From Dermacentor variabilis (Eukaryota > Arthropoda > Arachnida > Ixodida > Ixodidae), in assembly GCF_050947875.1 (NCBI RefSeq), contig NC_134570.1, positions 206,046,250-206,110,249 on the forward strand: DNA of 64,000 nucleotides, given 5' to 3'. This document shows, piece by piece, positions 2,934-53,640 of this stretch. Every line of letters starts with the position of its first letter. The stretch's first letter is position 1. The notes below the pieces were generated by a model that was not told where the DNA came from, searched no databases, and saw only the letters and a list, made by a program, of their open reading frames with translations. The translations under genes were made by a program, and so were the position numbers.

Positions 2934-2936
<3 letters not shown>
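1846..2936. other. No recognised feature
   Basis: AT-rich sequence with short poly-A and poly-T runs and no ORF with recognisable protein similarity. I see no gene or repeat family I can name. Confidence 0.6.

Positions 2937-3021
<85 letters not shown>
2937..3021. repeat. (TA)n microsatellite
   Basis: About 85 bp of uninterrupted TA dinucleotide. ORFs of alternating Ile and Tyr through it are artefacts. Runs like this form cruciforms and are often length-variable and hard to assemble. Confidence 0.97.
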
Positions 3022-3024
<3 letters not shown>

Positions 3025-5064
3025 CACTTTTTTACGCTGCCACATACCCTTTATTTAAATTCAGACAAAAGTTTTCATTGCTAAGGCATGCAATCACTAC
3101 GCTTCAAATTATGCTATCATCCTCGTGCTGTTTACAAATTGATTATCTAAAAATATAACATTTTGTTTACAAATTGCTGCATTTATATACTGTATGTTAT
3201 GACCTAGTGGATACATTACTTAGGAAAGGGAACTGGGGTAAAAACAGAACTAAACAAAAACATGACGGCGTTCTGTCTTGTGTCTTCCGGACTTGTTGCA
3301 GTCCAAGTAACAGTGGAGATCAGAGTTATTTTCCTACCTGATTTGCTAGTGAGTAGTTCAGACATGGTTATGTATCGAATAGAGCGGGCACTATGTTGCA
3401 AGTCGCCTATCACTCACTTGCCCTTTCGGCATTATGGGCGCGCTATATTGTTCTACATTGAAAAATAGAGAGAAGAACCTTTGCGCTGGAAATTGAATAT
3501 GATCATATGATGCAAGTTTGACTCACTTTCAGTGAACTGCTGTCCGACTTGTTTGAAGACATGTTTATAGCTAACTTTTGATCGTGTTTTGTAGTCATCA
3601 CGCAATTCACAATGTTATTTCACCACGCTCGGGAACTTATGGTGCACACAGTTCGAAGCCGAAGGGCTTTCTTTGTTAGACGCCCTTGTCAACATTATGA
3701 CATCCGTAGTTTGCACTAAAATAAGCGCTAGAAGCTACAAGAGATGTGAAGGTGTCGTGTGCCCCGACATCTGGCTATTCTAAAGACTGCAGAGCAGCAA
3801 GTAGCTCGTGCTATGACAGCGTAGGTGGGCCTCAGCTAGGGCAACTGGCCACGGCCATCTGGCGTTGAGCAATCGGGAAGTGATGAGACTATAATTTATA
3901 TGTTCTGTGTCCCTAATTTTTCACCATGTTCGCTCTTGACGCTCTTAATGCGTGTAACACCCCCCACCCCCGCCCCGTCATCGTATCCACCTCCCCACTC
4001 CCGGGCGCTCCTTGACCCTGTTATCAGTCAGTCGCTGTCGCACTCTTTAACATTCACGGGGTTGTTGAACAACGCGGCGGCGTCTAACATTCCTGTATTT
4101 CGGTTTCTGTGTAGGCATCGACGCAATTTACCTAGCTCCCCTCCCACCTGGCGGCCTCTTAGCTTACCTGGCCCAGAACCCCCGTCCTTAATATAAATTA
4201 CCGTGCGCAAGTCAGCGTTCCGTAGGCCATTCTTTCTTGTCACGTTTCTTTTTTCATGTTTTCATTCTGAGCAGTGTGTACAAACAAGCTTGAGAGAAAG
4301 CATTTTGAAGTTTAATGACAGAATGAAAGTCAGAGTCAAGGGAAAGAAAAAGAAGAAGAAAGGGGAGGCGGAGTTGTCATTGGTTTCCTATACGAGCAAG
4401 TTGCAATATTTTCAGAATGCTTTTCTCCTGCGCAGTATGGTCGATGATTCGGTCAACTACCACAAATTAGAAGTTCTTCGACGACATGAAGTCAAGTTTT
4501 AAGCTTGCGCGGGCCCCAGTTTTGTCTGCGTGGGGAACTTTCACGCTGACCTTCCCTCAGTAGTTATGATTAAAACGGTCCGGAATGAGGTAGAGACACT
4601 GGGCAGTGTCTCTAGGAGCCTCAATGTTCAGCCGGCTACAGGTGCTAGGCAACCCCTTTCTCCTACCTTTCTCTCTCAAAGCGACGCATATGGCACAATT
4701 AGTGTGGTCCTAGATATAGTGGTCCTAAACATTGGATTCTGGGGAGGGTAGTTCTACAACTGACTTTTTTTTTTATTTCATCGCCTCTGTGTCTGCGCCT
4801 CAAATATTCTAGCAAGCAGCAAGCTCAGGAGGCCCGACTCTTTATTCACTGAGTATCTCATCAATGGTGCACATTATGTGCGCACCAGTGACTGCACAGA
4901 ACAAGGGCTCGTCGTTCTTCTGAGAACAATAACGTCCTCATTACTTCAACAAAGAAAAACGTGCAGTTGCTTCAGAAAGCACTTTGCATACTTGTCTATT
5001 TTCCTTTCAATAAAGCCTTTCCTTGCTCCCGTAATCATTATGTGTCGGTCATAGGCACGCATTC
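3022..5064. other. No recognised feature
   Basis: Two kilobases of AT-rich DNA with only short, unsupported ORFs on both strands. A C-rich stretch lies near 3958-4020 and a purine-rich AAG run near 4345-4370; neither resembles a gene. Confidence 0.55.
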
Positions 5065-6340
5065 ATAATGGTAACGTTGCGAACAAGACGACGACGGAGT
5101 GAAATGACACAGGACGAGCACTGACTCAGAACTAAGTTTACTGAAACACACACCAGGTATATGAGCGACACAGGCGATCACGTGGTCACTCAAGGAACGC
5201 ACAACCGAGCCATGTATATACAGGGCATCTGTTATCGTATCGAGCTATCTAGGTACGTTAATTCCTGCTGCAAAAGCGCGATGGAAGGCTGGTTAATGCA
5301 CCACATGCCCTTTCGCTTAATGTGGGCTGCTTCCACGACTAATCTGGTGGATGCATCAGTTTGCTTCAACAAGATAGTTGTCTCTTTGAGCAGAGGCTTA
5401 CGCCTACATTTCCGGCAATGGGCAGACCCATCTGCATAATCATTCTTGTCCAAGGACTATTCATGCTCTTACATTAAATCTTGCATTGATGCACCGGCCG
5501 GTTTGCCCTATGTACACTCGCCCGCACTTGAGCGGGAAAGAGTATACCACATTCGTAGTGCAGCCTACATACTTATAAACATGTTTCACTTTGCACCTTA
5601 CGTTATAATTACGTTCTGCTGCACTTCCTCGCCTTTCGACCGTTGGACAAATAGCACTCAATTTTTCAGGAGCCGAAATGACAACCTACACCCCATAGCG
5701 ATCTGCAACGTTCTTCGGGCCATGAGACCGGCAGTATTCATAGCGTACAACTACCAGGTTGCTCTTTCTTGCTCCTGCTCCTGCTCTTTCTTCCGACCTC
5801 CTGCCTCCTCGAGTTTTTTTGCCCATTTAATCAACTTATCAGAGCTGCCCGTTATTAAGCGACCCGGGTACCCAGCTTCGTCCAGCCTGACTACCTGACG
5901 TGCGAAGGTGTCACCCAATGCATGCCCACATGTTTTTACCAGGACGGCGCGAAGTACGCAGATACAGATGGTATTTTTTATTACTTTAGAATGACCTGAG
6001 GTGAAGTTCAACAGGGGCTTGGCAGAACGAGCGAAATATTCCGAAGAGACATGATCGTCTAAAAAAACGTAGTCTAAGGACAAGGTATTCTAGTTCATCC
6101 TCTTTTGGTTGCTTCGAAGCGAACCTCAAACCCTGACCAAGCTTACTAAAAAAAACCCACTATTTCGTCCACCTTGTTGGTAGAGTCGTCTCTGTCAATT
6201 AAAGCCAAAAATTCATCAACATATCTGAACGTCTTGATGGCTATCCCAGAAGGACGCCGGTCTTATGCCACATCCACTTGCGTCAACTAAATGCTACTCA
6301 GGACGGGAGCCACCCCGGATCCGATGAAAAGCAAGTCGGA
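5065..6340 (-). mobile_element. Penelope-like element, 3' half (RT end + GIY-YIG)
   Basis: On -, in order: an RT remnant at about 6150-6340 reading YVDEFLALIDRDDSTNKVDE (the YVDD box changed to YVDE); the linker with VLVKTCGHALGDTFARQVVRL at 5751-6083; and a GIY-YIG nuclease at 5232-5661 with VVYSFPLKCGRVYIGQTGR followed by a Cys-rich SAHCRKCRRKP segment. These are the RT-linker-endonuclease parts of a Penelope-like element. Frames are broken between the blocks. The 3' end lies near a sequence reading ATTCATAATGGTAACG on +, which is the reverse complement of the end of the + copy at 9945. It is the inverted neighbour of the copy starting near 6505. Confidence 0.85.
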
Positions 6341-6504
6341 CAAGTTTCGGACAAGTTCAAGTTCAAGTTTATTCGTCAAGGATGTCAGTTTTACAAAGAA
6401 TTGCATACAACATTAGTACTACACAGGTAGCCGAAGTTAGAAACTGTCAAGCGGACTCCCTTACATGAACAAAATTAAAAAAAGCGAGATATAGATAAAG
6501 CATT
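6341..6504. other. Spacer between two opposed PLE copies
   Basis: About 160 bp between the - and + Penelope-like copies. It opens with a TTCAAG triplication followed by a TTTATT motif, as seen in antisense LINE 3' ends. No coding evidence. Confidence 0.4.
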
Positions 6505-7476
6505 GGTTACGGTGACTTTACAGACGATTCTTCTGTGGTGATACCTAACGGGGTTTATCAGGAAAAATCAAGTTTGGCTATTCGTCAGAACATTAAAGAA
6601 GGTAACGATAATCTACATAAAGTGAAAGAAAAGGCAGTGGCGCTTCTTGATGCTTTTAGCCTAGAAGGCTTTTACAAGTTCTGTTAAGAAAGCAAAAGAG
6701 GGACATTTAAAGTTATTCTTCTCTGTGAAGACGCACAAACAGGAGATACCGTTTCGATTCGTCATAACTCAAAGGAAAAATTGGCAAAGCGATGTTTCCA
6801 TGTTTTACAAGGTCCACCTTACCTCGCTAAAACCACTAAAACTGATCGATCCACTGGTCATCCCGAATTCTGAGAACTTGTAAAATACCTCTCGTCAAAT
6901 AATCCACGAAAGTGTGCCGCTTTTAGTGTCGACGTAGAAGGTCTGTTTTCATTCTTTGCTCGCAACCTAATAATGTGCAATCTCAAGGCATGCATTATGT
7001 AGCAGAATTGTGAAATGCGGTTTGTCCAAAAATGTGATGTTACTGTTCAAAGTTACCTGGAATTTTTTCATGTTAACTGAAGTCGACAATGAGTGGATGG
7101 AATGGCTTCCTTTTCGTACAAAACGATGGCATTTGTATCGGACCAGGCTGGCTCCCGTCCTGAGTAGCCTTTTGTTGGCGCAGGTGGATGTGGCATTAGA
7201 CCGGCGTCTTGCTGGGATAGCCATCAAGACGTTCAGGTATGTTGATGATTTTTTGGTTTTAACTGACGGAGACGACTCTACCAACAAGGTGGACGAAATA
7301 TAGGGGCTTTTTATTGAGCTTGGTCAGAATTTAAGGTTCACCTCGGAGCAACCAAAAGAGGATGAACTACAACACCTTGGCCTCAGACTAGGTTTTTTAG
7401 ACGGTCATGGCTGTTGGGAATATTTTCCCTGTTGAACTTCACCTCAGGTCATTCTAAAGTAGTAAAAAAATTGGAC
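6505..7476 (+). mobile_element. Penelope-like element, RT part (first of three pieces)
   Basis: The + frames give the Penelope RT: FFSVKTHKQEIPFR near 6718, a VDVEG-type box near 6925, then the ORF at 7010-7303 with SSLLLAQVDVALDRRL and the catalytic-box equivalent FRYVDDFLVL, followed by DDSTNKVDE. The piece stops at about 7476 inside the sequence that, in the opposed copy at 5065-6340, leads directly into the VLRAVLVKTCGH linker. That linker resumes at about 8332, so this is one element split by an insertion. Several stops show it is a dead copy. Confidence 0.82.
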
Positions 7477-9412: not shown

Positions 9413-9945
9413 ATGCAAAGTGAAACATGTTAATAATTATGTAGGCTGCACTACCAATGTGGTATACTCTTTCCCGTTCAAGTGTGAGCGACTGTACATA
9501 GGTCAAACCGGCCGGTGCCTCAATGTAAGACTGAGAGAGCGTGACTTGTCCTTGGAGAAGAATGATTATACACACGTGTCTACTCTTTGCCGGCAATGTA
9601 AGCGTAAGCCCTTCCTCAAAGAGACAACAATTTTGTTTAAGCATACTGATGGATCCACCAGATTAATCGTGGAAAAAGCCCACATTCAGTGAAACGGCAC
9701 GTGGCGCATGAGCCAGCCTTCGATCGCGCATTCTCAGCAGGAATCAACGTGCCTAGATAGCTGGATACGCTAACAAATGTCCTGTGTACACGTGGCCCGG
9801 TTGTGCGTTCCTTTAGTAACTATGTGATTGCCTGTGTCGCTTACATACCTGATGTTTGTTTTAGTAAACTTGGTTGTGAGTCAGCGCTCGTCCTGTGTCC
9901 TTTCACTCCGTTGTCGTCTTGCTCGCGCTGTTACCATTATGAATA
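9413..9945 (+). mobile_element. Penelope-like element, GIY-YIG end (third piece)
   Basis: Resumes the PLE: CTTNVVYSFPFKCERLYIGQ followed by TGRCLNVRLRERD is the GIY-YIG endonuclease core, then STLCRQCKRKPFLKETTILF and RLIVEKAHIQ. The element's 3' UTR runs to about 9945, ending in a sequence shared in inverted orientation with 5065-5080. Together the three + pieces make an almost full-length but interrupted element. Confidence 0.87.
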
Positions 9946-12085: not shown

Positions 12086-13796
12086 CATCGTCATCATCAT
12101 CAGCCTGGCTACACCCACTGCAGGTCAAAGGCCTCTCCCATACTTCGCCAACTACCCCAGTCATGTGTGAATTGTGGCCATGTTGTCCCTGCAAACTTCT
12201 TAATCTCACCCCCCACCTAACTTTCTGCCACCTCTTGCTACGCTTCCCTTCTCTTGGAATCCAGACCGTAACCTTAATGACTATCAGTTATTTTCCCTCA
12301 TCATTACATGTCCTGCCCATGCCCCATTTCTTTTTCTTGATTTCAACTAAGATGTCATTAACTCGCGTTAGTTCCCTCCCCCAATCTGCTCTTTTCTTAT
12401 CCCTTCACGTTGCACCCATCAATCTTCTTTCCATAGCTCGTTGCATCGTCCTCAATTTAAGTAGAACCCTTTTCGTAAGCCTCCAGGTTTCTGCCCCATA
12501 CGTGAGTACTGGTAAGACAAAGCTGTTATACACTTTTCACTTGAGGAATAATGGCAACCTCCTGTTCATGATTTGAGAATGCCTACCAAACGCGCCCCAG
12601 CCCATTCTTATTCTTCTGATTATTTCCGTCTCATGATCCGGATTCGCAGTCACTACCTGTCCTAAGTAGATGTATTCCCTTACCACTTCCATTGCCTCGC
12701 TAGCCATCGTAAACTGCTGTTCTATTCCGAGACTGTTAAACATTACTTTAGTTTTCTGAAGAAAAATTTTTAGACGGACCCTTCTACTTTGCCTGTCCAG
12801 GTCAGTGAGCATGCATTGCAATTGGTCCCCTGAGTTATTAAGCAAGGCAATATCATCAGCGAATCACAAGTTACTAAGGTATTCTCCATTAACTGTTATC
12901 CCCAATTCTTCCCAATCCAGGTCTCTGAATACCTCCTGTAAACACGCTGTGAATATCATTGAAGAGATCCTATCTCCCTGCCTGACGCCCTTCTTTATTG
13001 GGATTTTGTTGCTTACTTTATGGAGGACTACGGTGGCTGTGGAGCCACTATAGATATCTTTCAGTATTTTTACATACGGCTCGTCTACACCCTTATTCCG
13101 TAATGCCTGCATGACTGCTGAGGTTTCGACTGAATCAAACGCTTTCTCGTAATAAATTAAATCTATATATAAGGGTTGGTTATATACCGCACATTTCTGT
13201 ATCACCTGATTCATAGTGTGAATATTGTCTATTGTTGAGTAGACTTTACGAAAGCGTGGCTGGTCCTTCGGTTGACAGAAGTCTAGGGTGTCCCTGATTC
13301 TATTTGCAATTACCTTAGTAAATACTTTGTAGGCAACGGACTGTAAGCTGGTCGGTCTATAATTTTTCAAGTCGTTGGCGTCCACTTTCTTATTGATTAA
13401 GATTATGTCGGCGTTCTTCCTAAATTCTGGCACGCTCGAGGTCACGAGGCATTGTGCATACAGGGTGGCCAGTTTTTCTAGAACAATCTGCCCCCCATCC
13501 TTCAACAAATCTGCTGTTACCTGATCCTCCCCAGCTGCCTTCCCACTTTGCATAGCTCCCAAGGCTTTCTTTACTTCTTCCGACGTTACTTGTGGGATGT
13601 CAAATTCCTCTAGACTATTGCCTCTTCCATTATCGTCGTGGGTCCCACTGGTACTGTATAAATCTTTATTCAACTCCTGAACGACTTGAGCTATCTTATC
13701 TGTATTAGTAACGATATTGCCGGCTTTGTCTCTTAGCGCATGCATCTGACTCTTGCCTATTCTTAGTTTCTTCTTCACTGATTTTAGGCTTTCAGT
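12086..13796 (-). mobile_element. RTE-type LINE, 5'-truncated copy
   Basis: The - strand ORF at 12864-13778 (about 304 residues) covers most of an RTE reverse transcriptase: GKAAGEDQVTADLLKDGG, LKNYRPTSLQSVAYKVFTK, a YEKAFDSV box, and KKGVRQGDRISSMIFTACLQ. The catalytic FADD box is lost to the ORF: the sequence before GCTGATGAT carries TGTGA in place of TTCGA, creating a stop. The C-terminal KTKVMFNSLG...EYIYLGQVV block follows at 12537-12845. The element ends in CAT/ATG trinucleotides at 12087-12105. Against the copy at 20304 it carries more changes in conserved positions, for example IINKK where that copy keeps LIHKK. Confidence 0.9.
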
Positions 13797-20303: not shown

Positions 20304-22177
20304 ATCATCATCATCATCAGCCTCGTTACGCCCACTGCAGGGCAAGGGCCTCTCCCATGCTTCTCCAACTACCCTGGTCATGTACTAATTGTGGCCATGT
20401 TTTCCTTGCAAACTTCTTAATCTCATCCGCCCACCTAACTTTCTGCCGCCCCCTGCTACGCTTCCCTTCCCTTGGAACCCAGTCCGTAACCCTTAATGAC
20501 CATCGGTTATTTTCCCTCCTCATTACATGTCCTGCCCATGCCGCCATTTCTTTTTCTTTATTTCAACTAAGATGTCATTAACTCGCGTTTGTTCCCTCGC
20601 CCAATCTGCTCCTTTCTTATCCCTTACCGTTACACCCATCATTCTTCTTTCCATAGCTCGTTGCATCGTCCTCAATTTAAGTAGAACCCTTTTCGTAAGC
20701 CTCTAGGTTTCTGCCCCATACGTGAGTACTGGTAAGACACAGCTGTTATACACTTTTCTCTTGAGGAATAATGGCAACCTGCTGTTCATGATCTGAGAAT
20801 GCCTACCAAACGCACCCGAGCCCATTGTTATTCTTCTGAATATTTCATTCTCATGATCTCGATCCGCAGTCACTACCTGTCCTAAGTAGACGTATTCCCT
20901 TACCACTTCCGGTGCCTCGCTACGTATCGTCAACTGCTGTTTTCTTCCGAGACTGTTAAAGATTACTTTAGTTTTCTGCAGATTAATGTTTAGACCCAAC
21001 CTTCTGCTTTGCCTCTCCAATTGCTCCCCCGAGTTACTAAGCAAGGCAATATCATCAGCGAATCGCAAATTCCCAAGGTATTCTCCATACCTCTTATCCC
21101 CAATTCTTCCCAATCCAGGTCTCTGAATACCTCCTGTAAACACGCTGTGAATAGCATTGGAGAGATCGTATCTCCCTGCCTGACGCCTTTCTTTATTGGG
21201 ATTTTGTTGCTTTCATTATGGAGGACTATGGTGGCTGTGGAGCTACTATACGTATCTTTCAGTATTTTTACATACGGCTCGTCTACACCCTTATTCCGTA
21301 AAGCCTGCATGACTGCTGAGGTTTCGACTGAATCAAACGCTTTCTTGTAATCAATGAAAGTTATATATAAGGGTTGGATATATTCCGCACATTTCTCTAT
21401 CACCTGATTGACACTGTGAATATGGCCTATTGTTGAGTAGCCGTTACGAAATCCTGCCTGGCCCTTTGGTTGACAGGAGTCTAAGCTGTTCCTGATTCTA
21501 TTTGCGATTACCTTAGTAAATACTTTGCAGGCAACGGACAGTAAGCTGATCGGTCTATCATTTTTCAAGTATTTCGCGTCCCCTTTCTTATGGATTAAGA
21601 TTATGTGAGCGTTCTTCCAAGATTCCGGTACTCTCGAAGTCACGAGGCATTGTGCATACAGGGTGGCCAGTTTTTCTAGAACAATGTGCCCACCATCCTT
21701 CAACAAATCTGCTGTTACCTGATCCTCCCCAGCTGCCTTCCCCCTTTGCATAGCTCCCAAGGCTTTCTTTACTTCTTCCGGCGTTACTTGTGGTATTTCA
21801 AATTCCTCTAGACTATTCTCTCTTCCATTATCGTCGTGGGTGCCACTGGTACTGTATAAATATCTATAGAACTCCTCAGCCACTTGAACTATCTCATCAA
21901 TATTAGTAATGATGTTGCCGGCTTTGTCTCTTAATGCATACATCTGATTCTTGCCAGTTCCTAGTTTCTTCTTCACTGCTTTTAGGCTTCCTCCATTCCT
22001 GAGAGCATGTTCAATTCTATCCATGTTATACTTCCTTGTCAGCTGTCTTACGCTTGTTGATTAAGTTGGGACGTTCTGCCAGTTCTATTTTAGCTGTAGG
22101 GTTAGAGGCTTTCATACATAAGCGTTTCTTGATCAGATCGTTCGTTTCCGGCGATAGCTTACTGGCATCCTGTCTAA
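20304..22177 (-). mobile_element. RTE-type LINE inserted in the PLE, 9-bp target duplication
   Basis: The - ORF at 20990-22024 (344 residues) is the best-preserved RTE RT in the window: YNMDRIEHALRNGG start region, GKAAGEDQVTADLLKDGG, SWKNAHIILIHKKGDAKYLK, FIDYKKAFDSV and KKGVRQGDTISPMLFTACLQ. A small frameshift near 21060-21075 breaks it before LRFADDIALLSN, which is present in the next ORF (20703-21143). The C-terminal WAGHVMRRENNRW block and a CAT tail (20304-20320) complete the 3' end. CGGTGCCAC at 20295-20303 and CGGAGCCAC at 22178-22186 flank it and match the uninterrupted PLE protein frame (..GVAP|KGLQ..), so they are the target duplication. Confidence 0.9.
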
Positions 22178-27530: not shown

Positions 27531-29574
27531 GCGACTAAATAAAGTTTCTCTCTCTCTCTCTCTATCGCTCTGCCCCTAAGACGATGCCGCAATGTGGGTG
27601 AAGGCCACGGGAAAACTCGGCGACCTCACCCAAGTGGCGCGGAACGTCCGGAGCCCTAAGGAGAGATTGGATCCCCTGCTGGCGCAGTTCTTGCGGGAGA
27701 ACACGAAAAACAGGAGAAAAGAAGTGTTCCGGACCTTTATTACTCGTCGATACCTAAGCTAACACGCTTCGGCCAAATTTTTTTAACGTGCCTGTTTGCT
27801 TTACTAGATCAGAAACAGGGGAAGGCGGTCGACAGGCCAGCAGGTAGCAGACCTGGTGCGTGAGTAGGAGTTTTAACGAAAAATTCAGAAGTGTCTGTCT
27901 AGAGCGGGATATGGTGCAGCTAAACGTGTAGCTATCTATCTGCGTGACAGTTCAATTTGCGTGTTACCGGCAGATAAAGAAGGCGGGTTCTGAGTACTCT
28001 CGGAAGGGAATTTTCATGCAAGCGCTGGTCAGGCAGTTCCCGGCATTCTTAGGCGACAGGACACAGTGTCCTTAAGTAAGGTAAATCTAATACTAAGAAA
28101 CTTTATAAAGAATATAACTTGGACAAAATGTTGAGAAACATTGCCAGCAGCAAACGAGATCGCCTAGAGGTGTCTTTTAGCGCGAGAACGCACCAACGTT
28201 ACTAGACTAGCTTCAGTTTCGGAACCGCCACCCGCCCACGCCTTCGTGGCGCTGCAGTCGCGCCCAGCTTCACTTCCTCACTAGCCGGCTACGCGGGACG
28301 CGGGCGGGAAGTACGCGGTGCAGCGTTGGTGTGTTCTGTGGTTCGTTGTTGACGGCGAATTTCAGCAAGCATGTCATCCGCGAAACTGTAGCCTTCGCCA
28401 AGTTTGTTAAGAATATCAGCAGGTGATGGTGACGTGCTGCGTACCTGGCTCTCGGGATAATGTCGACAGTTCGGCGCGCCACTTTTTCTGTGCTCCCAGC
28501 AATGCGGCGCTTCGCTCGGCGTGGAACAGAGCGATTCCTCGTGCTGGCCGGTAACTCTCTGCAAAATCCACGGCACGCGCTCGTGCCACTGCTTCCGCGT
28601 TTGTCTTTGTCTTCCACAGCTGGCCGCGTTGCCGTTCATCATTCCAGCGTAGAATTTCTCTTCTGTCGTCGTAATGGGGAGGCCGCGTTTACGGGGGTAT
28701 GAGCCATTGAATAAGGGAGTATGGGCCACTCATTGTCTTACGTAACGGACAGATTTAATTTTGAATAAATTTAATTTCGGAGAATCACAAGCTGAAAATG
28801 GTGGGCGAAGGCTGCTAACCACGCCGCGGAGCAAACTCGAGACATCGAACGCAAGCGACAACGGCGGACTGCGGGCATACCGTCAGTGACGTCTTTCTCT
28901 CCGTCGCAGCCGATTGTGTGTGTAACCTCATAATTGAGAAATGCTGTAATGAACTCTCGTAATTAACCCAGTGATAAACATAGCGGCCGCACGTTTCAAC
29001 TTCGCTGGTTAACCATCTTCACGGAGTGGAAGAGCCGACGATTTCTTTTTTTGTTCTTGTGTCTTGTGTGTTCAAAGACTGACCTCATTTCCTTGTAGCG
29101 CTTCTTTGGCGTGGTGAGAAGCTTCTGTGGGGATGAAGATCATCCTACAATCACGCACTTTGGTCAGATCTTCAGGCTACTGAGCCTAAACTGCGCGAAA
29201 CGTTAAGAAACTGTGCGAAACGTGAAGACGACAGGATCTACACACGACATTTAGAAACGCAGCTTCTGCGCTTCGCTGTATGCGTTTCTTCCTTTCGTGC
29301 AGTTTACCCTTCTTTCAGTATGAACCAAATGGCCCGATAAATCTTATTGCTGTAGGTGGATACCGCTTTCTCATGGTATCACTAATTCGGGCAAGGGAGA
29401 ACGCCAGCGAGCGTGAAACATGCGCAGACTGCCTGTCCGCACGAGCTCAAGGCTGCGACGAGGCGTCTGCAGTAGAGCTCGATGGAACGGCGCTGCCATC
29501 TGGCGGCTGTCACAGAAGTGGCGACAGCGGCTGTAAAGACGCGGGCGGAGAGTTTTACAACTGAATCTTGTCTA
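27531..29574. other. Unassigned; CT run and an unidentified - ORF
   Basis: A CTCTCT run occurs at 27547-27563 after AATAAAGTTT, resembling the 3' end of a LINE. A - ORF at 28289-28729 (146 residues, starting MAHTPLFNGSYPRKRGLPIT) and an overlapping - ORF in another frame are GC-rich and unidentified. I see no domain. The rest shows no recognisable gene. Confidence 0.35.
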
Positions 29575-30910
29575 GTTACGTTGGAACGCACATACCTTAC
29601 CTACCATTGAGGGTTGTTGTTTCGGAGAAGGACACTTCCCAGAAGTCTATCGCGCTGTTTCTGCGAGCCAACCTAGCCGTTGTACCCGTGAATGACCCGT
29701 TTTTAATACTTAACTCCGACGAAGCGGTTAACTTCTTAAAGGGCAACTCCGATCGAGGCTTCCAAGTCTTCTCCGTCGATGTGAAAGACATATAGTATTC
29801 TATTCCCCACAATGACCGGCTGTCAGCTATTTCGCAGACGACTGATGAATTTGGTGCTACCCGTTTTCAGAATAATGTTGGGCTGTCAAGTAACCAATTT
29901 TTAGAACTTTTGAGCTTCTATTTGTCATCAACGTTCATTACATGAAATGACACCATCTGTTTGCAGAAAACCGGAGTGCGCATCGGTTCTTGCATTGCCC
30001 CGCTCCTCAGTGATTTATTTTTAGCTCGCCTAGATGTTGCCATGTCAGTGAACCTCAATCAGACTAATGTTTTTAAAATATTTCGTTATGTGGACAATTT
30101 TTTGTTTCGTATTCAGTGTTCTCCGGCTGATCTTGAGGCTGAGGTTGCCATTTTGGTGCTAGTAGTTAAAGAGTGCCATGCCTCTCTTGACGTTACCCAC
30201 GATCTCCCACATAGTTATGCGATCCGGCTTTTGGATCTGCGCTTAGCTTGTTCCGGTATTCACACGTTTTGGTACTATGAACGTCGTGCCAACAAAATAC
30301 TTCTTCCGTTTTCTTTTTGTTTTTTTTTTGCTAATTCTAAGTTGGTCAAGAGAGTCATTTTTAACCTTTGCCTAAATAATGCTTTCAAAAAATCGTGCCA
30401 CCATACCGTTTTGTCTAGCTTTGCTTCTCAGTGCGAACAGTTTTCGCAGGCTGGTTATCCCATGTCCTTACAAGTGTCAGTAGCAGAACAGATTCTAAGA
30501 GAGTTTAGAAAAGACAACCAGCACAAAGAAAATCCTACAACTACTCAGGGTAGGACAAGTATTATTCCTTATATCCACACCGTCTCACATAATCCTAAGA
30601 AAATCGCTAAGCGAGCGAATATTCGTGCGGTGTTTTCTGCCCCTGAGAAGCTTATGAGGATTTGCAAGCATCACTAATCCGAATAAGGAGGCTCCTCCTA
30701 GCTGTGATAAGAATCATAACAAAAAAGTTCGTTAATTGCACACATTGTGTTGTTTATTGTTTTCAACTCAAAGGCAGAAAACGTTACGTCGGCCAAACTG
30801 GCCGATGTCTGAATGATAGGCTTCGCGAACATAGTTGCAATGCTGAGAAGTGCATTACAGCTGTGGGGTTTCTTGCGCAGCGCTGCAAAACGTGGGGTTG
30901 CGAACCTTCT
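29575..30910 (+). mobile_element. Penelope-like element, RT to GIY-YIG start
   Basis: The + ORF 29568-29795 carries RVVVSEKDTSQKSIALFLRA and VFSVDVKDI; 29961-30677 carries RIGSCIAPLLSDLFLARLDV and FRYVDNFLF, where the second Asp of the usual YVDD box is Asn. The linker SQAGYPMSLQVSVAEQIL follows, and then VVYCFQLKGRKRYVGQTGRC, the GIY-YIG core, at 30750-30820. A stop after VKDI and the YVDN change indicate loss of RT activity. The coding sequence is interrupted at 30910 by a SINE and resumes at 31138. Confidence 0.87.
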
Positions 30911-36662: not shown

Positions 36663-39600
36663 ATGAGAACAGTGCGTTACCAGCGGATCGCCGGGATGAC
36701 GCACGTAGTCGGGCTGCTGGCAGCGGCGGTAATGCTACCGGTGGTCCAGAACGCTGCTATCCGTGGTTCCCCGAAGGAGAGCCGTCGCCACATGTCCTGC
36801 GACTGGACGCAAAGGTACGCCTCGAAGCACATGCGCTTGCACCTCACCGGGTTACATAAACGGCGCAAGGTTTTGTGCGCGTAAGTGGAAGGTCTCCGAG
36901 AACGCGGTAAATTTTGCGAATACGCGAGTTACAGTGTACATAAAGCGTGCTGAACGGGAGTTTTCGTCCTGATCAGCAGCCGTATTCTCCGACAAGCGTA
37001 CAAGAGGAGTGTGTCCTGAATAAACGATCAGTCGTTAGCGAGCGCTCGTATTGTCGCTTTTTGCATGTCTTCTGTGTTTGCATCATTCGTTTTCTGTTCG
37101 TTATTTGCTTGTTCGAGCTGTGTTATGCAAATGAATGCTATATTGATACAGTCCCGAGACCTCCAACTTAATTGACGGTGGGGCTTGGACGTAGATATGT
37201 GTTTACAGGATGCCCCACGTAACTTGAGCAAAATTTTCAAAACATGCAGATGCCATGTAGCTTGACAGAACCAAAAGGCAAGGTTGTTTGCCATCGCTCG
37301 GAGATACTCACATTATTTTTTGCATTCCGCCTAATTACATAATTAGCCTTAAGTAATCAACTTCTCAAATATTATCATTACATGAAAACCGTCAATGAGA
37401 AAATTGTACAGCAACATGAAAAACCCCCGATACAGCTTTCTGTTACTCAATGCAGGCTACATAAGAATGTTTTTCCAAGCATGAAAGAAGCTCGAGAATA
37501 CACGAAAAATTGCCGCGCGACTGGCCGCTCGAAGCACTTTGCGTATATACGCGGCCATCTCTCATGCTTTGAAAAACACTTTTACGTAGAACGTATGCAG
37601 CAACAAAAGGCTCTATCGGGAGATTTTCATGTTGCTCTACAATTTTTTCATAGACACCTTTCATCTAAATATAATATTTGAGAAGTTGACTAATTAATAA
37701 AGACTAATTATATAATTAGGCGGAATGCGAAAAATAATCTGAGTACCTCCGAGCGACGGCAAACAACATTACCTTGGTTACCGTGCTAGTCGCATATTTT
37801 TAAAGTTTGGCTCAAGCTGCGTGGGACCCCCGGTATACTGTGTATAGATGTGATAAAGTTGTCACTTCTGTAGCCTAAAGCTCACCTTGACTTTCGAAAA
37901 CAGTGGCCTAGCGCAGTCCTCCGAAGACGTGCTCCCTGTCTACCTGAGCTCGTGCGATTCCGGCACGGTCCGCTGGAGCTACCCTCGCGGGGCTCTGCGC
38001 ATCGTGATACGCGGTCCACCATCGCAGCCTGAGTTCCAAGCCTGCTTCCGGGTCGCAGCTGACAGTTCTGGGGCGTTGGTGTACGCGGAGACCGCTCAGG
38101 GCGGCCTCGTTCCGGGACCTGGCGTACGGGCCAAGTGCGTGCTCTCCAACCGAGGCTCCGCGGTCGTCTACGCCGTGGCCTCGGCTGCTCGAACGGGCAA
38201 GAGGGCTAAGCTAACCTTGACGTACACCACGAGCCAGCCCGTGGCGTCGTTCGAGAGGCTCGAAGGATGGGAAGGTGCGTATGAGCGCATCGTCTGACTA
38301 CGAACGATACACATTTCCTGCTTTGCTGCTAATTCCTTGCGTTTTTCCTCGTTTGTGCCCAGAACACTACACGTATTGCATTTTTCTTTTAAAAAAAAGG
38401 AAAACGAAGCATATTTCCGATGTATTTCGTTGACAGCCAACACTGCCGGTCTTTGAGATGCTCATACAGTAAGCGTCAAATTTTAGGAATGCATCTTGTT
38501 TATCTTTCAACATAATATAGCCCCACCAGTGGTGCGTTTCTTTTTCTTCCTTTTTTGCACACGAATATATTTTCTGCCGAAACACGTGCTTTATTATACT
38601 TACTACTGGGACCAAACCGCGGGTCGACGTTCTCGTGATATTAGTTATGGGTCATAATCAGCGCAACGACAATTTCCTCTAGCACAGGCCCTGTATCGAT
38701 TGCTTTTATTTCTTCTTTTCAGACTGCCGACCCTGCACGGAAACAGAGCTGCGTGAAAGTTACTGCCTTGGCGATCTAGGTGAGCGCCACGTGCCCACTA
38801 AGCAACACCGCGGCGGCTATGGCGCGGTCTGCCGCCGAGCGCCAAGTTCCGTTCCGGCTGCGGCGTTCCCGTAGAGCACAACGCAGAAACCATGCTAGTT
38901 TAGAGTACTTAAATTTAGGTGCATGTTAACGAACCTGAGGCGATTAAAATTGATACGATGCGTCTATTATACTACTCGTACTGCATAGGCGTCATAATTC
39001 GATTTTATCTAAAACGCCCAATGGCTCTATGTACAGATTCATTATACGAGGACGTCACAGCGCCAAGCAACGGTGCCATTTATTTATTTTTTTAACGTAC
39101 TCCACACCAAGCAGGTCCAAGCAGGATGGGCCACACAAATAAAAAGCATTTGTATTATAGAGAAAACGGTGTGCTATGAAAAAGAAAAAAAAACAGTAAA
39201 GGAACTTTAATCAGAATTTATTCGTGCATTTTGTCATAAACTTCAGTTAGATTGTAGAAGGACTTGTTGTGGGCTAGTTGGTGTTTGCTTACCGACATAA
39301 TGTAGCGCGAAGGCACAGTTACAAAGAAGAGACATGGAACACGTGACAGGCGCTACTAACAACTTTATTCGAAGGCCAGCGAGAAGCGTGCTCCCAACGC
39401 GCAGGCGCACCTGCCACTACTGGGGTGATTATCAGGACTAACAAGATAATTCAAGACATCTAAAGAAAGTAAGCTTCGCGTTGTAGAAAACAAGTCTGGC
39501 TTACACAAGCACTACTTTCTTCTTTTATGTAAAACGCTTCTAATATCTCTAATAATTTTAATAACCGGTTTTTTTGTGCAAAAGAATGGCATATGCGTAA

Positions 39601-45974: not shown

Positions 45975-46360
45975 GTGCATGGATAGATAAATGTTATGGG
46001 CGTCCCCTTTCGAAAGGGGCGGTGGGTTGCGCCACCAAGCTCTTGCTATTACACTCTAAGAAGAGTTTACACCCTTTGGAGTGCCCCTTCTGCCACACAA
46101 CGATAATCGTCATCTGCCTTGATGCGTTTCCTATCTTTAACGCTGCAAGCCCGGTACTTTCCACTAACGAACGGCATGCGCGTTATCAGCATGAAAGCAT
46201 TCTCGACAGGAAAGTAGCGGGCGCGGCGTTTTCAAGAAAGGAAACGCATCAAGGCAGATGACGATTACTCTTGTGTGGCAGAACGGGCACGCCAAAGGGT
46301 GTAAACTGTTCTTAGAGTGTATACTGCCTAATGTCCTACCTAAGTTAAACAATAAAAACG
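45975..46360 (-). mobile_element. LINE 3' end fragment, split by a MITE
   Basis: Reverse complement of the 3' UTR seen at 52560-52720 and 53080-53215: CGTCCCCTTTCGAAAGGGGC, GGTGGGTTGCGCCACCAAGC, TCTTGCTAT, and after the MITE TACTGCCTAATGTCCTACCT. The GGATAGATAAA at 45980 corresponds to its ATCC-type tail. Confidence 0.83.
46052..46319. mobile_element. 268-bp MITE with long TIRs and TA target duplication
   Basis: CACTCTAAGAAGAGTTTACA and onward, through GATAATCGTCATCTGCCTTG and ATGCGTTTCCTAT, is matched by its reverse complement at the other end, giving arms of about 90 bp with a few mismatches. The centre also partly pairs. TA at 46050-46051 and 46320-46321 flank it. The empty site is visible in the related LINE copies at 52640-52660 and 53125-53150, which read across without the insert, so the insertion point is exact. 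A TA duplication points to a Tc1/mariner-type transposase acting in trans. Confidence 0.9.
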
Positions 46361-46440
46361 CGCTTAGCGCCACCTAGAGAGGCTTCAAATTACTAAACTG
46401 TATAGTTACTGCGCGGTCCGACAGATGCCGCTAACAGCTG

Positions 46441-46448
46441 AAGAAAAC
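46441..46448. repeat. 8-bp target site copy 1 (AAGAAAAC)
   Basis: Abuts the left TIR of the P-like element. Identical copies lie at 50953-50960 and 52320-52327. Confidence 0.93.
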
Positions 46449-46487
46449 TAGGGTGCCTCGATGCGCGCGCCCCCGCTTAGGGTGAGG
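46449..46487. repeat. P-like element left TIR (39 bp)
   Basis: Exact inverted match to 50914-50952. Starts TAGGG and ends GGTGAGG; the next base differs between the ends. Confidence 0.95.
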
Positions 46488-47108
46488 ACATCTGCGTCGT
46501 CTGCTACGGCGGCCGCCATTCTCGTTCCCACTGCATGCTCGTTCTCGCGGAGAACGGACTCCTCCGCTTTCCGGCTCCCTATCTCACGCTCGGCAGCGAC
46601 TGGGGCTAACCCCCTTTCTCCCGCGCTGTTATGCGGAGGGCGTTAAAAGGCTGAATGGGCATTTTTCTTCGTGAACGGAGGCGCGGTAAACAGGATTGCA
46701 TGGGAAACCTCACTGATGTCCCAATGCAAGTGAGTGAATTTGATCGGTAAGAAAATTCAGCCGACGCGGTCAATGCAACAACGTCTTGGTTCTGCACGCT
46801 TTGAAGAAACAGCATCAGCAACGGTAATAAAATATAAAGTCCCCTTTTCGTCTGGTAACAGCCAGATGAATACAAAAGCTGTTACCCAAGCAAACATGAA
46901 ATCATTTATTCAGTGCTTATGAAAACACACAAAGTTAGAGATTTGTGTTTAATGGGAACGTGAACACTGAACATTATTGCACTTTTTAAAAGTCGACATT
47001 TATGTTAAATAGACCGTAATTGATAAAATAGTTGTGATCACTATATATATAGATGCAGACTTCAGACTTTGAAGGAAAAGGCTCGCAGAACTGCAGATTC
47101 CAGCTTGC

Positions 47109-50100
47109 TTACGCAAGGCTGACCCCTGCACAAGTCTTGCTTCCGTGGCCACTAGGATGAGTGCTCGGAATTTGTCGGAGATGAATTCGGAGCCTCACTC
47201 TGGCATATGCAGCAGTCAGCATTTTGCTTATTCGTTCTTTGTGAGCCATGCATGTGTTCACTGAGGGTTTGTCTATGCCTTCGAGATAGGCTATCAGAGA
47301 ACGAAGTGGCGACTTCATGGTGAAAAATTTGCCTGTGCACCATGAGTTGACAGCGGTGAAATGTTCCTCGTAGTTTTTTAAAGTTTTCATGACATCAGCG
47401 CTTGGATATACGAGGTTTTGCCCATCCCTGACGTATTCCTTGAGTGCAGTCAGGGAAGCATACTGATCGTCAGGCTTGCCAAGGAGAGCAGCCTTGCACT
47501 GCGGACAAGTTATAGATTTCAAAATTCCTTTCAAAATAAAACCGCCAAGGTAAAACAAGATGCGGCACTCGGTTGACGTGAGCTCTTCAATGAACAGAAT
47601 TTCCGTGTCGTTGATTTCATCGACTTCGCTTTCTGCACATTCCTTCTTGCTATGTGCAAGCAGATCGACAAGGTATTCGCGGTCGTCAAGTTCGTAGCTT
47701 GTTGATCTCGGAGTGTGAAGAAAGTGGCTGACGCTGACGAGTCGGAGTGCACACTTCAAGTCATACGCAGTGGGCACTGGCTTCATGAGCCGCACCACAG
47801 AAAAAAGGTTTTCTAGGCAGTCTTGCAACAGCCTGCTCGTGAGGAGGAATTCATACCCTTCACTGCCAAGAAGCACTTCTTGAAGGCGAAGGACAGCCGT
47901 TGTCGCAATTAGGACCCCTGCTTGCGATGGCTTCCACTGAGATCCAGTGCCCATTTTCAGTTCTCTGATGGTGTCTGTTGCCGTGCGTAGTGTGTCCAAG
48001 GCGGCATGATATTTAGTAATGTTCCTGCGGCTTAGCGCCATAGTGGGATGACGCGATGACATGAGGGCATACCACCTAGAAACGAGGTCCATAAACCACG
48101 CTGTTGTTTCGGCCTCTGGCTCAATCACTCCTTCTTTTATTAGGAACCGAATAGCTGGTGGGGCTTCACGGAAGAGCTGGACAGCGACTCCTACTTTCAT
48201 TTTGGTGAAGTGCCCACAACTAATGTGGGTTTCTGACAAATTTGGTGCTACCTTAAGTTCGTTGGCTGCGTCATAATCCAAGACGGCCTGTACATGCTCC
48301 AATTTCACCTTCGAGGCCGTCAGTCCGTTCCTGCTTACTGTAGTATCACTGAGTGTGAAAACTTTTGAGCTTAGAAGCTGTCCTTTCAGGTTCTTAAGGA
48401 CATGTGCCGGGTCCGAGATGAAAAAAAGTTCCTTCCCTTTTAAGGTTGGGTGAGGTATTGAGCACGAAGTTGTCGAATGGCGGTGGCTCGAAAAGCCAAA
48501 TTCTCTCCACATAGCGCGGTTTGCTGCACCCATGTCACATGTGATAACACGGACTCTTAGAGAAATCTGGCTGCATATCTGCACTATTTCCAGGACATAT
48601 GCCTTGAGTACAGAGCCGTCCACGTGCCTACCAGTGAATTCATAGGCTATCACTTGCTTCCATCTCTGGTTTACCCCACCTAGCATAAACACCAAAGCAT
48701 GATTGGCTGGCTCTTCAGGCTTTGAGGGCAACGTCGTTCCTCCCAGAAGCACGTCTTCGCCACGGTCGAGTTCAAATCCGGGTGCTATCTCCATTTCATC
48801 TAAAAAGAGAACGCAGTCTTTCTCCACGTCCTCCATTCCCTCTGCTTTCGACCTCATGACGTCGATCACTTCATGCAGGATACCTGGCAGAAACTTCAGG
48901 CCCTGAATTCTTCTTGCTAACGTTCTGCTGGATGGAAGAGGGTAGCCAATCTTTCTGAGTGTTTCATACCCGGTGGTTCCACAAGCAAATTTAATTTTTA
49001 GACCTTGCTTTACTGTTTGCGCTGACCACGAATTACCATGATTGTTGTTCCGAGAAAGAGCACGAATTTGGTCTTCATTTAAAAACTTCGTATTTCGTGA
49101 GAAATTAGTTGCCTCTTTCTGCAGCTTGCGTACCTGCATCTGTAGTTTTTTGACAGTGTTCTTAGATTCGTTATGATGTTGTCTAAGCTTATTATTGGCT
49201 GCTGTGAGATCTGCAATCTTCTTCCTAAGCTCAGCTGCCTCAGAATCGAGGGGTTGGGTCGCAGTAACTATTGCAGTTTCTTGAAGCCGTGCATCCCTGG
49301 GGGTCGAAGTAAGTTGCCCATTAGCATTGTTGGTTTCCGTAGCCGCCAATCTCTCATTTATCTCCCCGTCTGACGAAGAATCAGCGGGAGAAAATTCCTG
49401 CGTAGTTGAGGGAAGAACGTTTCTCACTTCTCGTGAAGAATTGTGTGCGGCTGCGTCGTCACTGAATAATGCAGGCACGTGTGCATTTCGTTCCCTTGGT
49501 GGCCTTCGCTCTTTAGGAAGTTCTGGAAACAGATAAATAAGAAAAAATGCCCATTACATATATTTAAGATTGTGTTAACTAAAAGCAGAATAGAAGGCGC
49601 GCCAGAAAATTTAATATGTATGCGCATGAATCGTTTCCTCACATAACTTTTTCAAATGTAGATAATGAGCCGATAAGCAACGTGGTAACAAATACCAGGG
49701 TCAGGAGGCATCTCACCTTTGAATGGGAACACCGTTGGTACAGCATTAGGCTTGAGCTTCTTCCACCCATCCGCGCGGTTCTGTTCGAAGCTGCTGGCTT
49801 CGAAATGAGCCTGCAGATGAATTTGATATTGAAATTAGCGGCGCATTTCCGGCTCGATAATGAAAACAATGAAGGCAGCACGCAAGAGAACACAGTAGTC
49901 CAAATATCAGTCGAATTACTCGAATGAGAGCCTCAATCTGCACATAACATATCCTGTCTATCTCATTCACTGACTTAATCCGCCATCGCAGAACGAAGCG
50001 TCGGGTTAACAGGCCAAAGAACAAATTAGTCGAAATATCAGGCGAATTACTCGAATGAGCGCCTCAATCTGCACATAACAACGATCTCTGTTAATCTCAT

Positions 50101-50770
50101 TTACTGACATAATGCGGCGTCGTAGGACGAAGCGTCCGGTTAATAGGCAGCGGAAGCTACCCAACGCCGCACACATGTCAAAAACAACTTCAGAAATCGT
50201 GAGTGAATTAATCAAAATTGGTTCCTGGACCATCCATTTGCACAGTAATTGCCACAGCTTATGTGCCCTTGCTTGTCCTCATGCTCTGTGCCTTGATGCA
50301 ATGTTTGGGCCCAGACCGCAATTCGCTGGCAAGCGCCTAGTAAAGGCAATTACCTTTGAATGAAAAGAAGCGGCGAAAGCACGCGTGGTACGTATTCCCC
50401 AGCGGACACGTGTCGTGCAATTTCGGATGCGAACAAGCAAGCGGCAGACAATGGCCTGTACCGCGCTGTAGTGAAACTCATTTACTTTGTTTTAGTGTTT
50501 CACGCAGCTTTTTTAAGCCGAGCAAGAAGAATATTGAACGACACTTAGCTGCCCAAACGCAACAAAATACAAATAAATCGCAACAAAAACAGCACTGAAC
50601 CAACATGTGGCACTTACGCTGCAGACACACGAGGAGTTCGTCGGTTGCCACTTGTCACGCTTGACTCGCACCAGCCACAGAAGCCGCCTTTTTGGGTCCC
50701 TTGGAAAATGGAACATCCTCCAACCATTTCTCGAATGGTTGGAGCACTGAGGAACACAACATCCAGGCAT
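47109..50770 (-). CDS. P-element/THAP9-like transposase, 3 exons, intact
   Basis: Exons on -: 50770-50618, 49810-49717 and 49522-47109. Junctions are AGC|GTAAGT, TCTGCAG|GC, AAAG|GTGAGA and TTTCCAG|AA. Phases fit, giving about 886 residues (human THAP9 is 903). Residues 1-82 form a THAP zinc finger: CCVPQC gives the first Cys pair, CSAHF gives Cys-x2-His, and AVPTVFPF is the closing AVPT-type motif. Residues 175-223 are a Leu/Lys-rich coiled coil. The RNase H-like core follows, with candidate catalytic Asp324 (LFLDEME), Asp412 (CDMGAANRAMW) and Glu653 (LENLFS), plus FFISDPAHVLKNLKG, characteristic of P/THAP9 transposases. A CPQCK motif near the C-terminus may bind metal. The start at MPGCC is chosen because THAP domains begin there; an in-frame Met lies 27 codons upstream. 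No stop or frameshift was seen. It should cut and rejoin DNA at the flanking TIRs in the nucleus. Confidence 0.92.
49896..50153. repeat. Two-copy tandem repeat, period about 131 bp
   Basis: Units at about 49896-50022 and 50027-50153 share AATATCAG/CGAATTACTCGAATGAG, CCTCAATCTGCACATAACA, TCTCATT.ACTGAC and CGAAGCGTC.GGTTAA. It lies in intron 1 of the transposase gene. Such internal repeats could be transposase-binding or regulatory, but this is speculative. Confidence 0.88.
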
Positions 50771-50913
50771 TCTACGCCGATGAAAGCCGCGCGAACGCAG
50801 CAGCGTTTCGAGGACGCCCGCACAGCAGCGCGGCGAAGTCGACGCGGGCAACGCAATGGCGGAGGGAGCGCGCGAAAACAGGTTTAGGCGGCGCCGGCTG
50901 GTTCAAAGGGTGA

Positions 50914-50952
50914 CCTCACCCTAAGCGGGGGCGCGCGCATCGAGGCACCCTA
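50914..50952. repeat. P-like element right TIR (39 bp)
   Basis: Reverse complement of 46449-46487, ending ..GGCACCCTA next to AAGAAAAC. It lies about 140 bp upstream of the transposase start codon, so the promoter must overlap or adjoin it. Confidence 0.95.
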
Positions 50953-50960
50953 AAGAAAAC
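50953..50960. repeat. 8-bp target site copy 2, shared by two transposons
   Basis: AAGAAAAC lies exactly between the right TIR of the P-like element and the left TIR of the 1359-bp element. Confidence 0.93.
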
Positions 50961-52319
50961 TAGTGTTCCTGTATATGCTCCCGCAGGGAGCAGAGTTGCG
51001 CATAGGTCCGCCGTCGTGATCCAGCTCTGCATCGAAGCCCCTCCTCGCGCGCGCAGGAGCCAAATGCCACGCGGTGTTCCGCCTTTCTCTCTAGTGGTCG
51101 CGAGCTACAAGCGCCAATTGTTCGCAGGCGCTTAGCAAAGGGCAATTCTTAATACAGGCTACACTCGAATGAGTCATTCGTGCAGTCGGAGGGGGTGGGC
51201 TTCCAACCAACCGAAACTTTGTATGTACCTATGTAAACACGCATATACAAACACACACATGAACGTACAAATAGGGGGTAGCACCGCCTTCAGTTCCCCA
51301 AAATAAAATACTCCCGTGGCTCGAACAGCTCCAAAGTTCGCTCGCAAACGCGCAGTACGTTGCCACAAAAGGCGGTGCAATGATTTTCATGCATATGAAG
51401 TTGTCTTATCATTGTCAGAAAGCAAGAAATGTTTTAGAGAGTGTTTAAAACTTCACACACGTAAGCTGGACACTTAGCGCATATTGGCTGCCGAAACCAG
51501 CCGATTAATGACCGTCGCCAAGAGAGCTATCGTGCCTGCAGTTATGTCAGTGACCGTTAACAGAGCGTCATTTATCACTAACCATCGCTCAAAACAGCTG
51601 CACGTTTTCGATACATGCGGTGCAGACACAGATTTAAGCGCATTTCAAATGTTCACATGCGCACATTTTAAGCAAAGCTTACTTTTACGATTCATTCACA
51701 CCGCAGACTAATCAGCTATATAGTATCAGCAAATCTGCAAGTGGAAAAAGATTCAAGATGCAAGAGCTTCTAGATCAAATTTATTTCATACAAGGGAATG
51801 CATGAACGGCTGCTGGCAGCAGGCCAAGTGTGCTGGTTCTTGGAACCTTGGGGGCAGAATTCAAAGAAAATGGGAAGGCAACAAGCTATTAAGAGTAACA
51901 ACAGGTTATTTTTATTGCACTAATCACATCAAGATGGCAAACTTGCAGAGTAATTATTCACACAGTGCAGACTGTAATCTGACAACACATTTTTGGCATC
52001 GTAATGGCACAATACAAGTGCCAGTACGATGTGTTTCGTATCACTTCACCAAGGTCCTTGACTTCACATCGTCGAATACCGTACCTGAAACCCGCAGCTG
52101 CTCCTCTCAACGCACGATCGACGGTCCGCTGATTGCAATGGCGATGGCACTGACGGAAACGACGAGTTCGCATGAGTCGGCGATGCGCCCGTAAAGTTGG
52201 CTTCGCAGCGGCGCGGATCATTTGACGTCATTTTTCGCGCTCGGCCAATAGCTGTGCGAGCGGCGCCGGAAAAGGTATGCGCAACTCTGCTCCCTGCGGG
52301 AGCATATACAGGAACACTG
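50961..52319. mobile_element. Second TIR transposon (1359 bp), non-autonomous
   Basis: TIRs of 44 bp at 50961-51004 and 52276-52319 are identical except for the outermost base (T versus C). They begin (T/C)AGTGTTCCTGTATATGCTC and contain the palindrome GCTCCCGCAGGGAGC. AAGAAAAC flanks both sides. The start resembles the P-like TIR (TAG.GT.CCT shared), suggesting the same transposase group; hAT elements also make 8-bp duplications and start YARNG, so hAT is not excluded. Internal ORFs (for example + 51802-52194) show no transposase motif, so the element would need a transposase in trans. Confidence 0.87.
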
Positions 52320-52327
52320 AAGAAAAC
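52320..52327. repeat. 8-bp target site copy 3 (AAGAAAAC)
   Basis: Follows the right TIR of the 1359-bp element and precedes a truncated LINE 3' end. Confidence 0.92.
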
Positions 52328-52720
52328 GGTAAAGCTAGGGAAACGACGGAGCATATTTTATTAGAATGTGAAGACGTCTACCCAGCGGTCGATTTAGGCA
52401 CCACTGGCCTCCTTGAAGCCCTTGGGTTTAGCGGGAGCACTGGTAAAGCAAACAGGTCCGCAATAGACATTAGTAAGAGGCGATTGGAGGATTGGTGGAA
52501 GAAAAGTAGGGAAACGACAAAAGACGGAGACATATAAAAGCACAGTTCGCAATAGGGGATCAGAAAATTTGGACGTGGTAGTTCATAGTGCTTTTTTTTT
52601 CTTCTTTCATTGGTTAACCTAGGTAGGATATTAGGCAGCATACTAGCAAGAGCTTGGTGGCGCAACCCACCGCCCCGTTCCAAAGGGGACGCTCATAACA
52701 TCCATCCATTCATCCAGGAT
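52328..52720 (+). mobile_element. LINE 3' end fragment (first tandem copy)
   Basis: Starts in GKARETTEHILLECEDVYPA (CCHC-like finger end), then AVDLGTTGLLEALGFSGS and ISKRRLEDWWKKSRET, then the 3' UTR with GCTTGGTGGCGCAACCCACC, CCAAAGGGGACGCTCATAAC and a CATCCATC tail. Same family as 33300-34550. Confidence 0.87.
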
Positions 52721-53215
52721 GTTTATGATAACTCAGAGGGAAGCTCATTACTTTTCGAAGCGAGATCGGGATGCCTCAGAACACGCACCTATAAAGCGAG
52801 ATATAAGACGGAATAAGAAGCCTGTGCTTGCTGCTGTAAAGCTAGGGAGACTGTGGAGCATGTTTTATTAGAATATGAAGACGTCTACCCAGCGGTTGAT
52901 TTAGGCGCCACTGGCCTCCTTGAAGCACTTGGGTTCAGCGACAGCAGTGGAAAAGCAAACATGTCCGCAATAGGCATTAGTAAGAGGCGATTGGAGGATT
53001 GGTGGAGTAAAACTAGGGAAACGACAAAAAACGGAGACGTACAAAAGCACAGTTCGAAATAGGGGATCAGAAAATTTGGGTGTGGTAGTTCATAGTGTTT
53101 TTTTTTTTAACCTATCTAGGACATTGGGCAGTATAATAGTAAGAGCTTGGTGGCGCAACCCACTGCCCCGCACCGTTCCAAAGGGGACGCTCATAACATC
53201 CATCCATCCATCCAG
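52721..53215 (+). mobile_element. LINE 3' end fragment (second tandem copy)
   Basis: Repeats the same 3' terminus with a longer start: FEARSGCLRTRTYKARYKTE, CACCC-type finger, ETVEHVLLEYEDVYPAVDLG, ISKRRLEDWWSKTRETTKNG, 3' UTR and a CATCCATCCATCCAG tail. The final Cys of the finger is Tyr (LLEYED). The two copies lie head to tail, the second inserted in or just after the ATCC tail of the first. Confidence 0.87.
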
Positions 53216-53640
53216 AAAGTGGGAAGTGAGAAACCGGCTTTCTATGCCGGTTTCCCACTTCATAAGCTTTCTATGGTTAACGAAAAAGGGTCAAATTTGC
53301 CCTTACATTGCGGCGCATGCCCTTTGGCTACGCCTGATAAAGCATGCCAGCCTTTGCTGGCTAGAACCAAAATCTTAAGGCGCAGTCGTAACCAGGTAGC
53401 ACGTGAACTCGCAGAGGCTTTCTACATTGATAAGTCAGGTGATAAATGCGTAAGCGATTCTAGTATCAATCTGTATAAGAAAGAGAAAACGTTCTTGGCA
53501 TGTGCGCTTAGGCAATGATTGAATGAAAATTTAGGTATATATATGTATGTGCTTTCTGAATAAAATCAGTCGCGAGTTTGCGCCCGTCCATGTCCTTACT
53601 CGTCCGTGTCTTTTTTTAGCGCAATTCCCTTCTTTAAGTA
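53216..53640 (+). mobile_element. Penelope-like element 3' fragment with hairpin
   Basis: The + frame at 53270-53515 reads SNLPLHCGACPLATPDKACQ, TKILRRSRNQVARELAEAFY and CVSDSSINLYKKEKTFLACA, the C-terminal end of a PLE GIY-YIG protein, then a 3' UTR with GAATAAAATCAGTCGCGAG. It is preceded by a hairpin, GAAACCGGC/GCCGGTTTC with a 7-nt loop (53234-53258), in an extended AAGTGGGAA/TTCCCACTT pairing. Confidence 0.8.

Follow-up and report, generated by a model that had tools for sequence, protein, structure and literature searches.

Two different inverted-repeat elements side by side at one 8-bp sequence in the tick Dermacentor variabilis

How can two different transposable elements come to share a single target sequence? 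The question is raised by a locus at 46441..52327 of a 64,000-nucleotide stretch of Dermacentor variabilis DNA (assembly GCF_050947875.1, contig NC_134570.1, positions 206,046,250 to 206,110,249; this whole stretch is referred to as the window, and its numbering is used throughout). Here two elements with their own terminal inverted repeats (TIRs) lie next to each other: element A, a P-superfamily transposon of 4504 bp with its transposase on the minus strand (46449..50952), and element B, a nonautonomous TIR element of 1359 bp to which no strand is assigned (50961..52319). The 8-bp word AAGAAAAC stands before A, between A and B, and after B. We consider it moderately probable that this arrangement arose by two separate cut-and-paste insertions with exact reuse of a duplicated site, and that B probably belongs among the nonautonomous P-type elements.

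Three copies of one 8-bp word

The copies of AAGAAAAC are located at 46441-46448 (the outer left target duplication), 50953-50960 (between A and B) and 52320-52327 (the outer right target duplication), and all three are identical and read on the plus strand. Their positions, their direct orientation, the TIRs that they adjoin and the intact reading of A are all seen directly in the letters. If the 8-mer belonged to the TIR of either A or B, the right-hand copies would read GTTTTCTT. Instead it is direct, not inverted, at both ends of both elements, and it is therefore a target duplication and not an element end; we reject the possibility that it forms part of the ends of A or B. The preliminary description of this DNA had reported the same word before, between and after the elements, as well as element lengths of 4504 and 1359 bp, and on all of these points the positions and orientation agree with it. 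Its TIR lengths of 39 and 44 bp need correction for A, which measures 42, while for B the value is 43, or 44 if a non-complementary outermost pair is counted.

Since AAGAAAAC is an A-rich word, its frequency has to be considered. It occurs 9 times in the window with both strands counted, against 4.38 expected, and 2 of 100 shuffles reach 9. The bare presence of the word says little; its exact placement at three element boundaries is informative. Nine occurrences in ~128,000 positions, the three at the locus counted in, amount to a frequency of only 7e-5 per position, and an accidental third copy directly outside the right end of B is very unlikely for that reason.

The window was also scanned for 8-bp direct repeats bounding 14-nt TIRs (up to 3 mismatches, spacing 60-7000), leaving out 8-mers with more than 60 copies. 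Besides a TA microsatellite, the scan returned six rows: A, B, one inside the TIRs of A, one at 28194-29583, and two within a pair of inverted repeats (5061-5595 and 9414-9944). For six of the nine occurrences of AAGAAAAC the scan reported no element boundary, and the notion that the word is a strict target was rejected. The row at 28194-29583 is probably one further real-looking TIR element: within 28186-29591, 1390 bp are bounded by direct copies of GAACGCAC, and the element ends are CAACGTTACTAGAC and CAACGTAACTAGAC.

An intact P transposon and a noncoding neighbor

Element A is bounded by 42-nt TIRs at 46449..46490 (left, plus strand) and 50911..50952 (right, minus strand, on the 5' side of the transposase), which are complementary at 98%. 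Its transposase is 886 aa long, with a THAP and an RNase H-like region, and is spliced from three minus-strand exons whose introns are bordered by GT and AG. The first exon (50618..50770) encodes residues 1-51, in which the THAP domain begins (positions 1-45 of the 87 in the profile), the second (49717..49810) the remaining THAP region, and the third (47109..49522) the RNase H-like catalytic region and the C-terminus. The joined reading of the exons matches a Dermacentor andersoni database protein, P0001, letter for letter. P0001 represents a cluster, formed at 90%, whose 10 members come from 9 contigs, and because of this A is probably multicopy and recent.

The class of A follows from its protein. 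Pfam assigns PF21787 at 8.3e-28 and THAP (PF05485) at 4.2e-8, the latter on a stretch with exon 1 alone; in the Protein Data Bank (PDB) the Drosophila P transposase, 6p5a, is matched at 2.4e-35, and in the test of the THAP region 2d8r is matched at 7.3e-10 over residues 6-81 of P0001. The alignment with 6p5a shows that the fly-enzyme positions D230, D303, D339 and E531 and the D(2)H motif are kept, with the numbering of the acidic residues taken from PMC8230255. The P-type RNase H-like catalytic region, the N-terminal THAP domain, the acidic residues, the 8-bp duplication and the TIRs place A in the P superfamily, and the earlier label "P-like" is thus vindicated by the Pfam and 6p5a matches of the transposase. 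To judge from its sequence, A is structurally intact, shows no visible defect and could in principle supply transposase.

Two further features of the A family were seen. Intron 1 of the transposase gene holds an imperfect tandem duplication of ~139 bp (83%) at 49879-50148. In two D. andersoni gene models, P0024 and P0025, the N-terminal part of the A transposase is fused to other transposon domains (PF03184 in one, PF00665/PF00078 in the other); these are either further A copies or prediction artefacts.

Element B has 43-nt TIRs at 50962..51004 (left, plus strand) and 52276..52318 (right, minus strand) that are 100% complementary, outside of which the outermost pair, a left-hand T and a right-hand G, is non-complementary. 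Other registers for B were rejected, as by eye none of them yields a flanking duplication. Six-frame readings of B against 49 P relatives gave a best E of 0.075, and B appears to have no recognisable coding capacity. That B is an internally deleted copy of A was rejected on the same six-frame result and on a BLAST comparison of the window with both elements, which gave no match between A and B at E 0.01. Protein searches with a frame spanning the right end of B and a frame inside B returned 4 candidates and 1 candidate, respectively, all of them short of E 0.01, in a set of predicted proteins that is weakly informative on copies of a noncoding element. Against genome contigs, a piece of the B TIR found two bacterial records with a single 19-20-nt stretch each, which we take as chance. 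Searches of viral contigs with TIR pieces or the protein of A yielded no relative (3 and 25 peptide-pattern stretches, none confirmed), and Rfam gave no match over 46300-53300.

One site, probably used twice

From this layout we infer two events, the reuse of the site, the superfamily of B and the helper of B. The first element would have inserted through an 8-bp staggered cut, leaving AAGAAAAC duplicated, and the second, with an 8-bp stagger as well, would have entered one of the duplicates in exact register, giving target-A-target-B-target. Either order of insertion leads to the same structure, all three copies of the 8-mer being identical. The exact register would most simply mean that a site acceptable to a P-type transposase was used again after the first insertion had made two copies of it, and B would probably resemble a P-related miniature inverted-repeat transposable element (P-MITE) with an unrelated interior, perhaps served by the transposase of A or a related one. 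The preliminary description had proposed that the two TIR elements share a target and that one inserted into the duplication made by the other; given the layout and the direct 8-mer, we retain this as the best reading. Its further proposals, a strong preference for duplicated sites or transposon ends and one transposase moving both elements, would be conjectural. Among natural fly P insertions, 178 of 1,226 coincide exactly with laboratory insertion sites (PMC3276498), and the P transposase of the fly excises the zebrafish element and vice versa, though the ends differ (PMC10983969).

The case for B as a P-type element comes from its ends. The outermost 10 bases of B match those of A at 8 of 10 positions at the left end and at 7 of 10 at the right, levels that are reached by 45 and 367, respectively, of the 127,980 10-mers in the window. 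When the comparison is anchored at the ends and extended to 26 nt, 3 of 5000 shuffles attain the observed score at the left end and 38 of 5000 at the right. A shared start of the TIRs had been claimed at the outset, and in this anchored comparison the likeness of the outermost bases is indeed above chance. It mildly supports B as a P-type nonautonomous element, and a P-type origin appears the likelier one for B. The closest counterparts of B are the P-MITEs of Anopheles gambiae, in which TIRs resembling those of a P element and an 8-bp target site duplication (TSD) surround an interior unrelated to P (PMC1562414). P-MITEs keep ~100 bp of their masters, as that source gives it, whereas B has only ~10 outer bases in common with A.

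A somewhat doubtful alternative is that B is a nonautonomous hAT element and that one site was used by two transposases unrelated to each other. P and hAT elements both make 8-bp target duplications, so the length of the duplication is not diagnostic for B as a P element. hAT elements start with YARNG, and the ends of B, T/CAGTGTTCC (T/CAGTG), fit this rule; A, which is P by protein, also starts TAGGG, and the fit therefore does not discriminate. The outermost C/T mismatch likewise has a parallel in Ac, which carries one at its outermost base. The hAT element hobo and P share TSD length and have similar motifs, GTNCGNAC and GTCCGGAC (PMC3276498). Against a hAT origin stand the anchored likeness of the B ends to those of A, the lower likelihood that two unrelated enzymes reuse one site, and TIR length, which for hAT is given as 10-25 bp (PMC3942097) versus 43 in B.

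Several observations weigh against repeated use of the site by P-type enzymes. The evidence comes from a single locus, from which reuse as a tendency is not deducible. Fly P and hobo favour palindromic targets (PMC3276498), and in the 14-bp frame of the reconstructed site none of the 7 pairs is palindromic, a score as low as that of 14% of the 14-mers in the window; the site is also unlike the fly P motif GTCCGGAC. Being non-palindromic and unlike that motif, it does not have the appearance of an intrinsic hot spot. Nor is cross-mobilisation a given, because the zebrafish transposase gave excision without integration, and integration of the zebrafish element was observed with neither protein (PMC10983969). 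The kinship of A and B is open to similar objections. When their TIRs are aligned locally without anchoring, the best alignment is not terminal, and the BLAST comparison described above is likewise a point on this side. The two right ends have in common a 10-mer, CCGGCGCCGC, at 50888..50897 (minus strand, 56 nt from the right end of A) and 52260..52269 (minus strand, 51 nt from the right end of B), its two copies in the window. Among 1000 shuffles, 28 equal this at offsets no larger than 6 and 187 at any offset, and the 10-mer would be weak evidence for kinship. Finally, subterminal inverted repeats, which are reported for fly P and Pdre2, were sought in A and B as exact runs up to 600 bp from the ends, and the longest run, 9 nt, is within the range of 60 shuffles. 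As judged from these comparisons, the tie of B to P would rest on few bases.

The poor palindrome leaves room for end-directed insertion, in which a P-type complex recognised a resident end and inserted the newcomer at its flank, and the repeated 8-mer reflects targeting of the end rather than of the sequence. The exact register and the likeness of the ends of the two elements would fit as well, and in Drosophila willistoni 28 Galileo copies (14.7%) bear other elements at their termini (PMC4168063). We nevertheless regard this as rather unlikely: it is a single case, no second tandem pair is present among the scan rows in the window, and the available portions of the P-element literature describe no such pattern. 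A broader proposal, which we consider quite unlikely, is that tick P-type transposases would prefer the flanks of resident P-type ends, exactly within their 8-bp duplications, such that tandem arrays of different families would form at one doubled site, in which an intact element serves a partner with an unrelated interior.

Composite insertion had also been raised in the preliminary description, and it does not stand up well. In such a macrotransposition with hybrid ends, A, the inner 8 bp and B would have arrived as one unit, for which the movement of P copies en bloc, proposed for an Anopheles MITE (PMC1562414), offers a model. That unit requires a target equal to the inner 8-mer, a coincidence of ~7e-5, and we find it very improbable. 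Least probable of all is an assembly join or chance. The apparent presence of A in several similar copies could cause a misjoin, but the three junctions would then not be expected to show one and the same 8-mer.

Surroundings, parallels and meaning

Directly to the right of B lies what we read as a 3' fragment resembling a long interspersed nuclear element (LINE), at 52328..52717 on the plus strand, which was recognised by its similarity to other copies in the window and gave no Pfam match in the one frame tried. This similarity sets in at 52327-52329, right at the edge of the third AAGAAAAC, and the other two copies in the window (52836 onward; 33570 downward on the minus strand) extend farther upstream. 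The left flank of A is unlike a continuation of the LINE-like fragment, and for that reason either the fragment had been truncated at that point beforehand or its 5' end happened to coincide with the target. Elsewhere in the window, reverse transcriptase frames (PF00078) are found at 12867-13778 and 20993-22024, inside repeats that are 89% alike, and there are self-complementary stretches at 46050-46321 (80%), just left of A, and at 37201-37838 (76%).

Tandem P insertions with a common 8-bp target occur in Drosophila, for example in singed-weak. As in that type, the tick locus has two elements with one target copy between them; both are P copies in singed-weak, and they are different elements here. 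With Drosophila P, Anopheles AgaP and zebrafish Pdre2, element A shares the 8-bp duplication, the transposase with THAP and RNase H-like regions, and the acidic residues. AgaP elements measure 4178-7545 bp with TIRs of 27-31 bp (PMC1562414), a range that includes the size of A and comes near its TIR length. A begins TAGGGTGCC, and Pdre2 begins CATACC (PMC10983969). A also differs from these elements in its TIR of 42 nt, and the search for exact runs found no subterminal inverted repeat in it above the range of the shuffles. Galileo, also of the P superfamily, again has other elements at the ends of some copies; its duplications are mostly 7 bp, and the available text leaves a shared duplication unstated (PMC4168063). 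Arrays of Mutator-like elements (MULEs) targeted to microsatellites also place different elements end to end through a common target preference, in their case in plants, with 10-bp duplications and simple-repeat targets (PMC5907723). In the portions of the open-licence literature that were available, no report was found of two different TIR elements with one target in a tick.

The locus is a fresh example of an already known kind of event, close to the patterns described. Limited as a single locus is, it would gain importance only if a genome-wide count shows an excess of tandem pairs. Its value is that a young-looking, structurally intact tick P transposon lies beside what may be its nonautonomous partner, both at the same target, which makes it a natural place to test target choice by P-type enzymes and the ability of one enzyme to serve different ends.

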